Shown here in pieces: positions 17,029 through 63,713 of a DNA stretch of 64,000 nucleotides. The stretch spans positions 1-64,000 of the forward strand of contig CAJXLV010000001.1 of the NCBI GenBank assembly GCA_913056185.1, read 5' to 3'. The notes under the pieces are model-generated. The model ran no database searches and had not been told where the DNA came from. It saw only the letters and a list, made by a program, of their open reading frames with translations. How positions within the stretch are numbered: position 1 is the stretch's first letter; the number at the start of each line of letters is the position of its first letter. This DNA is from an uncultured Bacteroidota bacterium (GTDB lineage: Bacteria > Bacteroidota > Rhodothermia > Rhodothermales > Salinibacteraceae). A program made the translations under genes and the position numbers.

Positions 17029-17370
17029 AGAAACAGTCTCTACAAATGAAGGACGACGACATCTCGGGACCCTGTACGGACGTCGTCGAGATGGGATCGT
17101 TGTGCCCGCCTTCTTCCACACGTTTTGCATGCGTCTCTTCTCTTCGCCCTCCTCGCACGGCCCCCGACGCGATTTCAGCACGGTGTGCCAAACCGTAGCC
17201 TCGCCCCCGAGCCCCGCTGCCGAAGTGTCAGGAGACACCATGCGCGCTGGGGCCGAATGAGGCATTCTCCGTGCTGGTCCGGATCTTGCTCCAGACGCCC
17301 TTCCCGATCTACAAGAACGGTCTTCTCGTTTTCTTCTTCGATTTGCTCTCACGCACTACAGGTTCGCTCC
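17029..17370. other. Divergent intergenic region
   Basis: This lies between the start of the minus-strand CWWCG gene and the start of the plus-strand small acidic protein, so it should carry both promoters. No confident promoter or operator was found. Several frames are open across it but their composition is unlike the flanking genes. Confidence 0.5.
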
Positions 17371-40582: not shown

Positions 40583-40962
40583 ACCTCGTCCTTGCGCTTT
40601 TTGTGGTGGTGGGCTTCGCCGCGACGCTCGAACGGCTTCGGCTGCCGGCGCGGGCCCGCGAGGTGGGCGAGCACAGCACCGCCTGCCTCCATGTGCTGCG
40701 CGACGACTCGCTGGACGACGCAGGGAAGGAGCAGGCCCTGCAGGCACGCTCGCGCCAACTCTTTCGGCTGTTGGGCATCCTCACGGGCGGTAGCGCCCTC
40801 GCGCTTGGCCTTCCCCTGGCGGGCGTGTGGCTGCTGTCCCGCATGGGCGTGGGCACCTTTACGGGCACCCTCCACGTCCTGCAGCGGATCGACTTTCTGG
40901 TCGCCACCACGGTCGTCGGCCTGCTCGCATACCTCCTCGTCCAACAGGTCCGCTCCCCATGA
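40579..40962 (+). CDS. Membrane protein of the sulfotransferase operon
   Basis: 127 residues with an N-terminal helix (NLVLALFVVVGFAATL), a helical soluble segment and two further helices (LLGILTGGSALALGLPLAGV; FLVATTVVGLLAYLLV). No family recognised. Overlaps both the gene before it and the sulfotransferase after it by four bases each, which is strong evidence for one coupled operon. Confidence 0.7.
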   Translation: MNLVLALFVVVGFAATLERLRLPARAREVGEHSTACLHVLRDDSLDDAGKEQALQARSRQLFRLLGILTGGSALALGLPLAGVWLLSRMGVGTFTGTLHVLQRIDFLVATTVVGLLAYLLVQQVRSP

Positions 40963-58955: not shown

Positions 58956-61900
58956 ATGCCCGAGTTTTCCCACCTCCACTGCCACACGCAGTATTCGCTC
59001 CTCGATGGCGCCGCCGGCATCGACAACCTCATCGAAAGCGCCGAGCGGCGCGGCGTCAACTCGGTCGCCATTACCGACCACGGCAATCTCTACGGCGTCC
59101 CCGAGTTCTACACAACGGCGGAAAAGTCCGACGTCGACCCCATTATCGGCTGCGAATTCTACTTGACGCCGAGCGGGATTCAGGACACCTCGGACCCCAC
59201 CCGCTACCATCAGGTCCTCCTGGCCAAGGACCAAACCGGCTACGACAACCTGATGCAGCTTTCCTCGACCTCCTTCCTGGAGGGCTTCTACTACAAGCCG
59301 CGCATCGACCGCGCCCTCCTGCGCGAGCACCACGAGGGCCTCGTGGCCACCACCTGCTGCCTGCAGGGCGAAGTGCCGCAGGCCATCCTCAACAAGGGCG
59401 AGGAGCGGGCCCGCGAGCTGTTCGAAGAATACCTGGAGATCTTCGGGGACGACTACTACATCGAGATCCAGAACCACGACATCGACGACCAGCACACCGT
59501 CAACGAGGTGCTGCTGCGATGGGCCGAGGAGTACGACGTGAAGGTGCTGGCCACCAACGACGTGCACTACGTAGACCGGCAGGACCACGAGGCACAGGAC
59601 ATCCTCCTCTGCCTGCAGACCGGGGACGACTACAACGACCCGGACCGGATGCGCTTCAGCAACAACGAGTTTTACCTGAAGGGCGAGGAGGAGATGATGG
59701 AGGCGCTCACCGGCATCCCAAAGAAGTTTCAGCGGGAGGCGCTCGTCACCACCAACGAGGTGGCCGACAAGTGCACCTTCGAGCTCCCGATGGGGGACCT
59801 CCTGATGCCCCATTACCCCATCCCGGACGGGTTCGAGGACATGGACGGGTACCTGCGCCACCTCACCTTCAAACGGGCAAAGAAACGCTATGGCGACCCG
59901 CTGCCGCAACAGGTGGTGAGCCGCCTCAACCATGAGCTGGGCATTATCGCCGACGAGGGCTACTCCGGCTACTTCCTCATCGTGCAGGACTTTACGGAGG
60001 CCGCCCGCGAGCTTGACGTGCGGGTGGGGCCGGGCCGCGGCTCCGCGGCGGGCAGCTGCGTGAGCTACTGCCTCGGCATCACCGACGTCGACCCCATTGA
60101 GTACGACCTTCTCTTCGAGCGCTTCCTGAACCCGGAGCGCGTGTCGATGCCCGACATCGACATCGACTTCGACGACCGCGGGCGCGAAGAGGTGATCGAC
60201 TACGTGGTGCAGAAGTACGGGCAGGAGAACGTCTGCCAGATCATCACCTTCGGCTCCATGGGCGCGAAAACGGTGGTGCGCGACGTGTCCCGCGTGCTCG
60301 ACATTCCGCTCGACCGCGCCGACGAAATCGCCAAGATGATTCCCGACGGGCCGGGCGTGGATCTCGAAAGCACCTTCGAGGACAACCCCGACTTCCGCGC
60401 GCTCAAAGAGGCGGACAACCCGGAGGTGCGCAAAATGATGCAGTATGCGGAGGTGCTGGAGGGATCGGTGCGCCACACCGGGGTCCACGCCGCCGGCGTC
60501 ATCATCGCCCCGGGCGAGATCAGCGACTACGTGCCCGTCTCCGTCTCCAAGAGCAAAGGCGAGAAGGTGGTCACGACCCAGTACGACGGCGACTGGGTGG
60601 AGAAGTTTGGCCTCCTCAAGATGGACTTCCTGGGCCTCAAGACGCTGACGCTCATCGAAGATGCCGTCGACCTCGTGGAGGACACGCGAGGGGTGGAGGT
60701 CGACATCGACGACATTCCGCTCGACGACGAAGCCACGTTCGAGCTCTTCCAGCAGGGCGACACGGTCTCGATCTTCCAGTTCGAGTCGACCGGCATGCGG
60801 GAGTGGCTCCGCAAGCTGAAGCCGACGGAGATCGACGACCTGATCGCCATGAACGCGCTCTATCGGCCGGGGCCAATGGAAAACATTCCCACCTACATCG
60901 CCCGGAAGCACGGGCACGAAGAGGTGGAGTACCCGCACCCGATGCTGGAGGACATCCTGGAGCCGACGTACGGCATTCCGGTCTATCAGGAGCAAGTCAT
61001 GCAGATGGCCCGCGAGATGGGCGGCTTCTCGCTGGGGAAGGCCGACATTCTGCGCCGGTGTGTGCCGGGTAATACCCGTGTTGTGGATGCCGAAACGGGT
61101 GAGCGTCGCCGCGTCGATTCTATTGAGCCGGGGACATCGATACTCACGCTTGACGATGAGTATGAACTGACGGAGACCACCGTCGCTGAGCGGTTCGAGA
61201 ATGGAGCAAAGCCAGTTTTCCGCATCACGACTCGCAGCGGTCGAACGATCGAGCTCACTGAAAATCACCCTCTCCGAACCGTTGAAGGATGGGAGCACCT
61301 TTCCGATCTCTCGGAGGGGGACGAAATTGCCGTTCCCGCTTCCCTTCCGGTGAGCGGTACCGATAGCCCTTCCAGTGCTCGAATCCGTATCCTCGCATAC
61401 CTGCTCGGTGATGGCCAGACCATGAATGACCGAGGCCATGCCGTAGCGCGCTTCTACAACAGTGATCCGGACGTACTTGCGGATTACCGAGAGGCGGTGA
61501 CCGACTTCGGGGGACAGACGAGCACCTACGATTATCCTACTTCAGATGTAAAAACGGTTACGGCCCGCGGCGCCGAAGAGGGGAATAACCCCATCACTGA
61601 CCTCGTGCGGAGTGCTGGAATGGTTGGACAAGCAGAAGAGAAGCACCTTCCCCGCGAGGTTTTCCGCTACGATTCGGAGTCGCTCGCGCACTTTCTCGGG
61701 GTTCTTTTCAGCACGGATGGATCGGTCGAGAAGACGCGCATCTCTTACAGCTCTTCGAGCCCGGCTTTGATCGATGACCTCGCTCATGCACTCCTGCGTC
61801 TCGGCGTCGCCACGGTGCGGCGACACCGTGAAACGACACACCAGGACAATACCGAACTCATCGTCACCGATCAACGAGACATCGTACAGTTTGCAGAGGT

Positions 61901-63713
61901 CATTGGACCGCATCTTTGTCCTCAAAAAAGAGAGGCTCTCAACGTCCTGTACGAAGATGCTCTTGACCGGTCGCGCAACCAGTCGATCTACAATCTTCCC
62001 GCAGACGTAACCCACGAGGTCCGTCGAGCCAAGTACGAAAGCGGACGCACCTGGCGCGAGGGAGGCGAAGAAGTTGGCATTCCAGGAAGCAATCTGTCGT
62101 CGGGTCTCAACTTCAAAGATCCTAACCACAAGCTCAGTCGGCATCGCCTAGAGGCACTCGGACGCGCGTTTGACAGCGATGAGCTCGTCAATATCGCGAA
62201 CGGAGAGATCCTCTGGGATCCAATTGTCGACATTGAGTACGTCGGGGAGAAAGAGGTGTACGATTTGTCCGTCCCTCCCCACTCCAATTTTGTCGCGTCG
62301 GATGTGGTCATCCACAATTCGATGGGCAAGAAGAAGGACAAAATCATGAATCAGATGAAGGGGGAGTTCGTCGAGGGAGCGCGAGAGCGTGACGTTGACG
62401 AAGATACCATCGAACATGTGTGGGAATTGATGGCCAAATTTTCGGGGTATGGCTTCAATAAATCTCATGCCGCGGCCTATTCGATCGTCGCCTACCGCAC
62501 GGCCTACCTGAAGGCCCACTACCCGCCGGAGTTTATGGCGGCGGCGATGACCAACGAGATGGACAACACCGACAAGCTGTCGAAGGTGCTGGAGGAGGCA
62601 CGGACGATGGGCCTGGAGGTGCTGCCCCCCTCTATCAACCGCAGCAGGGCGCACTTTACGGTCGAACAGGGCGAGGACGGCACGTACCGGGTCCGCTTCG
62701 GCCTCGCCGCCATCAAAAACGCGGGCGCGACGGCGATCGACGCGCTCATCGAGGCGCGCGAAGAGCACGGCCCGTTCGACTCCATCTTCGACGTGGCAAA
62801 AAACGTGGACCTGGGCACGGTCAATAAGCGCACGCTGGAGGCCTTGGCCCAGGCCGGGGCGCTCGACGACCTGGAGGGCCACCGCGCGCAGCTCATGGAG
62901 ATCATGGACACGGCCGTGCGCTATGGCCAGAAGGTACAGCACGACCGCATGGCCGGGCAAAACTCGCTCTTTGGCAACGGCGATGCGGGCACGGAGGCCA
63001 TGCAGCCCGGCCTGCCCGACGTGGAAACATGGTCCAAGTCGCGGCGCCTGAAGGAGGAGCACGACGTGCTTGGGTTTTACGTCTCCGGCCACCCGCTCGA
63101 TGAGTACCGCGCCGAGGCCGATGCCTTCGCCACCGCCCACTTCGGCGAGCCCGACCAGCTGGAGACGATAATCGAGCAGGCGGCGAGCGGGGACGGTCGA
63201 TCCCGCGGCCCTGTGCGCACCTTCTGCGGCATCATCACCGACGTGGACCGCAACACCACCAAGTCCGGCAAGCCCATCGCGTTTGCCACCATCGAGGACT
63301 TTACCGGCCAGGGCGAGATGGTAATCTTTTCCAGCATCCTCGACCGCGTACAGCCCTACCTGCAGGTTGACAACGTCGTTCTCGCGAAGGGCAATGTGGA
63401 GGTGCGGGGCGGCACCGTGAAGGTGCTCGCGAAGGACATTAGCCCCATGTGGAAGGTGCGCGAGCAGATGGTGGACGAGGTGGTGCTCACCGTGGACCTC
63501 GAGCAGGTTGTGCCGGAGGCGCTTCGCACTTTCCAACAGCTCTGCGAGCACACCGATGGCACCTGCACGCTTTACTTCGACGTCGAGGCCCCCCAGCTCC
63601 GCGGCCAAGAACGCCTGCGCAGCCGGGCATACGTCGTGGAGCCCACGGCGGAATTTATGCGACACGCCCAACGCCTCTTTGGAGCGGACAGTATTTCGCT
63701 GAAGGGGCGATGA
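58956..63713 (+). CDS. dnaE: DNA polymerase III alpha subunit with intein
   Basis: 1585 residues as translated, 1165 after removal of the intein at residues 702-1121. N-terminal PHP domain (HLHCHTQYSLLDG), palm with the catalytic aspartates in MPDIDIDFDD and a further one downstream, fingers, beta-clamp-binding region and OB domain (about 1400-1500; ITDVDRNTTKSGKPIAFATI). Replicative polymerase. The intein splits the conserved LRR-AMGKKK segment of the fingers, where the +1 residue here is serine instead of the usual alanine. Codons just after the intein are AT-richer than the rest of the gene. Confidence 0.97.
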   Translation: MPEFSHLHCHTQYSLLDGAAGIDNLIESAERRGVNSVAITDHGNLYGVPEFYTTAEKSDVDPIIGCEFYLTPSGIQDTSDPTRYHQVLLAKDQTGYDNLMQLSSTSFLEGFYYKPRIDRALLREHHEGLVATTCCLQGEVPQAILNKGEERARELFEEYLEIFGDDYYIEIQNHDIDDQHTVNEVLLRWAEEYDVKVLATNDVHYVDRQDHEAQDILLCLQTGDDYNDPDRMRFSNNEFYLKGEEEMMEALTGIPKKFQREALVTTNEVADKCTFELPMGDLLMPHYPIPDGFEDMDGYLRHLTFKRAKKRYGDPLPQQVVSRLNHELGIIADEGYSGYFLIVQDFTEAARELDVRVGPGRGSAAGSCVSYCLGITDVDPIEYDLLFERFLNPERVSMPDIDIDFDDRGREEVIDYVVQKYGQENVCQIITFGSMGAKTVVRDVSRVLDIPLDRADEIAKMIPDGPGVDLESTFEDNPDFRALKEADNPEVRKMMQYAEVLEGSVRHTGVHAAGVIIAPGEISDYVPVSVSKSKGEKVVTTQYDGDWVEKFGLLKMDFLGLKTLTLIEDAVDLVEDTRGVEVDIDDIPLDDEATFELFQQGDTVSIFQFESTGMREWLRKLKPTEIDDLIAMNALYRPGPMENIPTYIARKHGHEEVEYPHPMLEDILEPTYGIPVYQEQVMQMAREMGGFSLGKADILRRCVPGNTRVVDAETGERRRVDSIEPGTSILTLDDEYELTETTVAERFENGAKPVFRITTRSGRTIELTENHPLRTVEGWEHLSDLSEGDEIAVPASLPVSGTDSPSSARIRILAYLLGDGQTMNDRGHAVARFYNSDPDVLADYREAVTDFGGQTSTYDYPTSDVKTVTARGAEEGNNPITDLVRSAGMVGQAEEKHLPREVFRYDSESLAHFLGVLFSTDGSVEKTRISYSSSSPALIDDLAHALLRLGVATVRRHRETTHQDNTELIVTDQRDIVQFAEVIGPHLCPQKREALNVLYEDALDRSRNQSIYNLPADVTHEVRRAKYESGRTWREGGEEVGIPGSNLSSGLNFKDPNHKLSRHRLEALGRAFDSDELVNIANGEILWDPIVDIEYVGEKEVYDLSVPPHSNFVASDVVIHNSMGKKKDKIMNQMKGEFVEGARERDVDEDTIEHVWELMAKFSGYGFNKSHAAAYSIVAYRTAYLKAHYPPEFMAAAMTNEMDNTDKLSKVLEEARTMGLEVLPPSINRSRAHFTVEQGEDGTYRVRFGLAAIKNAGATAIDALIEAREEHGPFDSIFDVAKNVDLGTVNKRTLEALAQAGALDDLEGHRAQLMEIMDTAVRYGQKVQHDRMAGQNSLFGNGDAGTEAMQPGLPDVETWSKSRRLKEEHDVLGFYVSGHPLDEYRAEADAFATAHFGEPDQLETIIEQAASGDGRSRGPVRTFCGIITDVDRNTTKSGKPIAFATIEDFTGQGEMVIFSSILDRVQPYLQVDNVVLAKGNVEVRGGTVKVLAKDISPMWKVREQMVDEVVLTVDLEQVVPEALRTFQQLCEHTDGTCTLYFDVEAPQLRGQERLRSRAYVVEPTAEFMRHAQRLFGADSISLKGR
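61059..62318 (+). mobile_element. DnaE intein with LAGLIDADG homing endonuclease
   Basis: 420 residues in frame. It starts with Cys in CVPGNTRVVDAETGE (block A), has the block B histidine in ELTENHPLRT, and ends VYDLSVPPHSNFVASDVVIH-Asn (blocks F/G). Ser at +1 completes the splice chemistry. Two LAGLIDADG-like motifs, RILAYLLGDGQ and LAHFLGVLFSTDGSV, mark the endonuclease domain at about residues 100-300. It is lower in GC and has less biased third codon positions than the exteins. Self-splicing is expected; endonuclease activity is uncertain. Confidence 0.95.

Follow-up and report, generated by a model that had tools for sequence, protein, structure and literature searches.

The dnaE gene and its intein sites

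The window, the whole 64,000-nucleotide stretch of DNA that was analysed, contains a salt-loving bacterium's dnaE gene for the replicative DNA polymerase III alpha subunit, interrupted by an intein (intein A). The features at this locus are as follows.

58956..63713, + strand: dnaE, replicative DNA polymerase III alpha subunit; a single frame of 1585 codons including the intein, with Pfam PHP, DNA_pol3_alpha, finger, HHH_6 and OB domains
60933..61058, + strand: putative 5' co-converted tract; foreign DnaE version with normal GC3, left edge between ~60924 and 61016 (HMM; 5/5 separating residues foreign; AU p = 0.02)
61059..62318, + strand: intein A; 420 aa, Cys1 to His-Asn, LAGLIDADG homing endonuclease domain, inserted between RR and SMGKKK
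62319..62321, + strand: codon (TCG) of the +1 Ser, the predicted splicing nucleophile; Ala in 10 intein-free congeners
62319..62489, + strand: putative 3' co-converted tract; foreign DnaE version, right edge between ~62481 and 62495 (HMM; AU p = 2e-14)
62376..62489, + strand: subsegment of the 3' tract with AT-ending codons; GC3 19/36
62460..62465, + strand: empty second intein site, site B, between FNK and SHAA; filled by a different intein in G004, G023, G001 and G009

Intein A has the characteristics of a large intein, an in-frame splicing domain with Cys1, a C-terminal His-Asn and Ser at +1, and it matches the Pfam families Intein_splicing (1.7e-21) and LAGLIDADG_3 (PF14528; 6e-18). It is predicted from its sequence to splice and to cut the empty site. 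Site B lies 48 codons downstream of site A, at 62463, inside the AT-rich part of the 3' tract. Intein B is absent from the dnaE genes of G000, the genome of the window, and of G019, the two carriers of intein A in the genus that were checked. Across the order, site B is filled in several genera and families (L110, L111, L112, L113, L225, L226, L237).

The family search covered 27 genomes. The C-terminal extein was found in 24 of them, and no dnaE match was found in G020, G007 and G008. The genus was represented by 13 genomes, of which G020 (62% complete) gave no match, leaving 12 dnaE genes for comparison. Intein A is present in two of the 12 (G000 and G019) and absent from the other ten. G010 and G006 are partial contigs and were left out of the extein set, and G009 is partial at its N end. 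Two versions of the DnaE protein were distinguished, genus-type and type-2, the latter in the relatives G002, G003, G004, G005 and G023. These five genomes formed the donor set, which was picked after inspection of the alignment; the order-wide ranking is independent of it.

Extent of the foreign DnaE version

The sequence at ~60933-62489, leaving aside the intein, encodes in both G000 and G019 the DnaE version that is typical of other genera in the family, and the outer flanks are genus-typical. According to an HMM applied to the nucleotide sequences, the foreign run covers codons 659-757 of G000 and codons 669-754 of G019. G000 has a sharp right edge, at codons 755-759; the left edge is uncertain, lying at codons 656-686 in G000 and extending up to 710 in G019. 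The import is two-sided, with 57 codons (171 bp) on the 3' side and most likely 42 codons (126 bp) on the 5' side, where the edge is less sharp and the minimum is at least about 42 bp. Some 300 bases of donor dnaE thus appear to have come with the intein, on both sides of it and including the +1 residue required for splicing. The first-pass annotation had described a one-sided import, but foreign sequence flanks the intein on either side, and it is the AT-rich composition alone that is one-sided.

Residues that distinguish the ten congeners from the five type-2 relatives were scored along the extein. Within codons 659-757, G000 is foreign at 26 of 27 such residues; of the 58 that lie outside, 53 are genus-like, 3 foreign and 2 neither. 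G019 is foreign at 24/27 inside and genus-like at 55/58 outside. A host-like residue within the 5' tract is the Arg at codon 685. Nucleotide identity between G000 and its congener G022 is 94.5% over codons 600-673, 58.9% in the 3' tract and 94.6% over codons 757-800, and 28 of the 56 residues just downstream of the intein differ between these two genomes. Against all ten congeners, the residue identity of the G000 extein, taken segment by segment, is 67-100% outside the tract; it is 74-84% over the last 31 codons upstream of the intein and 46-53% over the first 59 codons downstream. Over the same 59 codons, identity with type-2 DnaE is 81-85% for G002, G003, G004 and G023 and 73% for G005. Foreign sequence adjoins the insertion site and gives way to host sequence on each side, with the weaker edge at the 5' end.

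The tract is absent from all ten intein-free congeners, as judged by HMM leave-one-out analysis and by the separating residues. The same tract in intein-minus relatives is what the first-pass annotation had named as evidence against homing, and its proposal passed this test. The leave-one-out runs (n = 10) span just 5-8 codons, and the sole run in the tract region is at codons 747-751 of G018 (5 codons). Further donor-like runs were called at codons 1151-1164 of G000 (weak, posterior 0.79) and at 817-823 and 910-917 of G019 (7-8 codons). An assembly artefact is unlikely because G019, a separately named genome, has the same mosaic.

Trees of the segments were built with the paralogues G015p and G021p left out. 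In the N-segment tree, G000 joins G022 (98/97) and G019 joins four other congeners (99/97), all within the genus (100/100), and placement among the type-2 lineages is rejected (p = 2e-153). The tract, by contrast, falls with type-2 DnaE (86/83, not starred), and a genus grouping is rejected for it (AU p = 3e-8). For the C segment, type-2 is rejected (p = 6e-5), and an exclusive genus clade is weakly rejected (p = 0.03) as G001 falls inside. In the DNA trees, a genus grouping is rejected by the 3' side (AU p = 2e-14) and by the 5' side (AU p = 0.02); the 5' side does not group strictly with the donor set, but such a grouping is not rejected (p = 0.34). The outer flanks, ~100 codons on each side, support the genus and reject type-2 at 9e-4 (DNA). 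Transfer of the whole dnaE does not describe this gene, the N segment lying in the genus and the C segment too, with G001 nested. The dnaE of G001 (L112) is a further mosaic, its N part grouping with G003/G004 (89/85) and its C part falling inside the window's genus (100/98).

The first-pass annotation expected the tract to cluster with intein-carrying lineages instead of the host. The tract does leave the host genus, but the DnaE version that it belongs to includes carriers and non-carriers alike, and carriers are singled out only by the residues nearest the intein. The type-2 clade that groups with the tract contains the intein-bearing G002, with the carrier G046 next, but also G003, G004, G005 and G023, which are free of intein A. 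An order-wide search with the 3' tract (114 genomes, 104 matched) ranked the best intein-free congener 47th by E-value, and the genomes from outside the genus that ranked above it numbered 44 by E-value and 42 by bit score. Beyond the two carriers, the nearest DnaE sequences for the 3' tract belong to other genera, G002 (85%; carries intein A) and G003 (83%). With the genus-type tract as the query, the phylum draw gave many other families at ~55-69% and the type-2 G003 at 55%; a genus-type tract that is the resident version would suit these matches.

Codon composition

GC3 of the window's dnaE is 0.91 before the intein, 0.61 within it and 0.85 after it. AT-ending codons had been reported from 62319 onward. 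The anomaly is real, but the first 19 codons (62319-62375) are normal (GC3 14/16), and the AT-rich stretch covers ~114 bases starting 57 bases after the intein. GC3 is 19/36 informative codons at 62376-62489 compared with 922/1032 in the remaining extein (Fisher p = 8e-8). The lowest GC3 window of the G000 extein is codons 719-754 (34 informative codons, GC3 0.50), with a permutation p of 0.0005 that is the floor with 2000 shuffles. The seven codons singled out by the first-pass annotation (AAT, GAT, CAT, TTT, TAT, TCT, TTG) are indeed enriched: they account for 10/57 codons at 62319-62489, compared with 36/1108 in the other parts of the extein (p = 4e-5). The return to GC-ending usage that it placed near 62490 was confirmed, GC3 recovering at ~62490, and this point coincides with the right edge of the foreign HMM run. 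Its statement that no comparable stretch lies upstream of the intein holds for GC3, which is normal at 60933-61058 (34/38 in 42 codons), but the same foreign DnaE version is found there. Inside the imported tract, GC3 differs between the AT-rich part and the remainder, which is normal (Fisher p = 1.8e-4, for a boundary picked after viewing the data).

Comparable GC3 dips (0.53-0.59, p <= 0.001) were detected at the frame start in 3 of 10 intein-free congeners (G022, G012, G011) and milder ones in G013 and G016 (p = 0.013), in dnaE frames cut from stop to stop so that the dips may partly precede the true start. In the window, 19 of 39 mechanically chosen ORFs, dnaE and the intein counted, contain a GC3 window of <=0.53. 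Dips of similar depth therefore occur elsewhere, and ancestry, not composition alone, had to decide. Very low GC3 was also seen at 17251-17352 (0.26) and 40848-40946 (0.32), with 34 informative codons each, in ORFs of higher GC3; these are mechanically chosen, stop-to-stop frames, and part of them may be non-coding.

At the codons matching the AT-rich part, congener GC3 is 32/39 to 37/39. AT-ending codons number 17 in G000 and 14 in G019, and nine are identical in both. GC3 at the same positions is 34/36 in G002, 29/36 in G004 and 27/36 in G023, the last two being type-2 genomes that carry intein B. A low-GC donor of AT-rich composition was not found in the order, the phylum draw, or the plasmid, phage and viral-contig searches. 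The proposed foreign origin of the tract is supported, but a uniformly lower-GC donor fails to account for the part of it that is GC-rich. AT-richness is limited to codons 720-757, and the donor gene may itself have been a mosaic, or two conversions may overlap. Constraint at the homing site was rejected as the origin of the AT-rich codons because these sit 57-171 bp downstream and GC-rich codons adjoin the site.

Probable homing with co-conversion, and the alternatives

The +1 residue was surveyed at 96 loci, with some genomes represented twice and the window gene lying outside the set. The site was matched at 91 loci, and no site-pattern match was obtained for L072, L104, L105, L117 and L225. 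At the 83 loci that lack intein A, the +1 residue is Ala (78), Gly (4) or Ile (1, L074). Ser is found at all eight intein-A loci (six genomes) and also in the window gene and two paralogues, and is restricted to intein-A carriers among the loci surveyed. Placed before Ala, an intein is without the second nucleophile of the splicing reaction. Since the intein-free alleles of the genus have Ala at +1, the intein had to bring at least one extein codon, so co-conversion would also have supplied the splicing nucleophile (Ser). Ile at codon 709, eight codons past +1, occurs in the window, G019, G002 and G046, all of them carriers, and at 0/83 loci without intein A. It is present at 4/8 intein-A loci, and codon 709 is Glu in the carriers G061, G045 and G063.

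Relatives of intein A were sought in several collections. The order search (114 genomes) gave eight matches above 50% identity besides the window's own (G019, G002, G021, G015, G046, G061, G045, G063). Judged by the 3' tract, G002 is the nearest intein-bearing relative found, and its intein is 72% identical to that of the window. In the phylum draw (395 genomes), an intein match at E 1e-60 was obtained in five genomes, the window's included, all from the same order. Two stretches of viral contigs matched a pattern and none was confirmed as a relative, and matches in plasmids (12 records) and phages (34 records) were all below 60% identity. For the 3' tract region, 80 of 92 viral-contig relatives were kept, the best with 61% identity over part of the query. 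The closest inteins reside in dnaE-like paralogues of the congeners G015 and G021 and are sister to the G000/G019 intein (100/99), with G002 outside. These dnaE-like genes (L238:7646-13927 in G015, L105 in G021) have intein A at the same site, and the G015 gene is without a PHP match. The G015 paralogue has a phage-type integrase and an HTH regulator nearby; it may be on a mobile island and act as a vehicle for intein A within the genus. The paralogues were rejected as direct donors of the tract, their extein being just 31-37% identical to G000 in the 3' tract.

Endonuclease-driven homing with two-sided co-conversion from another lineage of the family is very probably the correct explanation for the mosaic. 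The homing endonuclease of intein A would cut an intein-free, genus-type dnaE between RR and AMGKKK. Gene conversion would then mend the break, the template being an intein-bearing dnaE from a different lineage in the same family, with a DnaE of the 'GIPVYQ...MGG...SMGKKK..IMN..MKGEFVEGA..VWELMAKF' type. Together with the intein, repair would copy extein from both sides, 171 bp downstream and most likely 126 bp upstream (at least ~42 bp), and would swap the 28 of 56 downstream residues that differ from G022 and turn the +1 Ala into the Ser needed for splicing. Co-conversion is the expected outcome of the homing mechanism. The first-pass annotation had reached the same proposal from codon usage, and the comparison with relatives backs it more strongly than codon usage does. 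From their position and association, we infer that the intein, the tract and the +1 Ser arrived in one homing event.

The association of tract and intein rests on at most two events, with two of the 12 dnaE genes of the genus carrying the intein. Because G000 and G019 are not sisters in the N tree, acquisition happened either twice, or once with at least two losses. The nine identical AT-ending codons and the similar edges make it probable that both tracts go back to a single mosaic or a single donor type. The two genomes differ at 15/46 third positions of the 3' tract, compared with 136/501 and 94/308 for host segments and 163/359 for the intein.

A variant of this explanation, which does not exclude it, has two steps: an AT-rich 3' import came first, perhaps via site B (62463), and homing of intein A then overlaid a shorter, GC-rich tract. 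The composition break near codon 720 of the imported tract would mark the overlay, and site B does lie in the AT-rich part and is filled in four relatives, but one protein version runs throughout the tract, G000 and G019 are without intein B, and GC3 in the type-2 carriers of intein B is the 29/36 and 27/36 given above. We regard the two-step order as unlikely.

Ordinary homologous recombination, without any cut by an endonuclease, could have swapped a dnaE segment that included the intein. The endonuclease domain of the intein, together with a tract that straddles the intein and occurs in 2/2 carriers and 0/10 non-carriers of the genus, makes a cut-free exchange quite improbable, even though the family contains another dnaE mosaic (G001, with its differing N and C tree positions) and the size of the tract would also suit ordinary conversion.

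It is very unlikely that G000 and G019 keep an ancestral, genus-wide tract and intein and that the other congeners were converted back to the Ala type. Such a history would need about four separate replacements on the N tree, the Ala-type tracts of the congeners diverge like their flanks or slightly less and so look vertically inherited, and the surviving AT-ending codons favour import after the genus had formed. The separate positions of the two carriers fit ancestral retention, as does their third-position tract divergence, which resembles that of host segments and would allow an old shared allele. A later loss may have occurred in G022 or in the G011-G016 group. The G022 tract is slightly closer to those of G021, G014 and G013 (9.3-9.7% difference) than to G011-G016 (11.0-12.7%), unlike the outer segments of G022, and these distances are no more than a hint of a loss followed by a regain there.

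Local relaxed selection or chance, unrelated to transfer, is an extremely improbable source of the codon anomaly, for all the dips of similar depth elsewhere in the window and near congener dnaE starts, because the protein version itself switches over the same stretch, G019 shares the nine AT-ending codons, congener GC3 there stays at 32/39 to 37/39, and the protein and tree evidence contradicts it.

Homing with co-conversion is an already known process, and the window holds a clear natural footprint of it. The angiosperm mitochondrial cox1 group I intron, in the excerpted account of PMC3192709, likewise has a patchy distribution and foreign exon sequence beside the element as the footprint of horizontal homing. 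The excerpt gives a canonical 3' tract of minimally 3-21 bp, one tract of minimal length 78 bp, and a 5' tract that is weakly supported at best; in dnaE the element is instead an intein, half of the residues downstream are replaced, and the tract extends 171 bp to the 3' side and, most likely, 126 bp to the 5' side (PMC3192709). For the haloarchaeal MCM-d intein, the available portion of PMC10643990 describes occupied sites with Ser always at +1 and empty sites mostly with Pro, an invasion that requires co-conversion of the +1 codon, and a few invasions of this type. The dnaE case resembles MCM-d in having the +1 Ser only with the intein and in the second-nucleophile argument, and differs from it in its bacterial DnaE host, in an empty-site residue of Ala or Gly, and in a long extein tract with both edges mapped (PMC10643990). 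Actinophage methylase inteins are also insertion elements tied to recombination within the host gene, and the accessible text of PMC9957025 describes no flanking tract, whereas here the edges are mapped around one element. A long extein tract with both edges mapped was not seen in the source excerpts of a small literature search, which is no proof of absence.

The footprint records a selfish element that changed half of 56 residues of an essential polymerase, apparently in one step. Its tract lengths are measurable, and the +1 residue explains in concrete terms why the flank had to be copied. It is conceivable, if rather doubtful, that the ~100 dnaE codons around sites A and B have been rewritten repeatedly by homing elements across the family; if so, selfish elements would be a principal force in the amino-acid evolution of part of a replicative polymerase. 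The two deep DnaE versions are 39% identical at codons 720-750, compared with 57-94% across the 22 windows that precede codon 660 and 47-84% beyond codon 750, and they are scattered against the gene phylogeny, with the genus, G001 and G009 having one version and G002-G005 and G023 the other.
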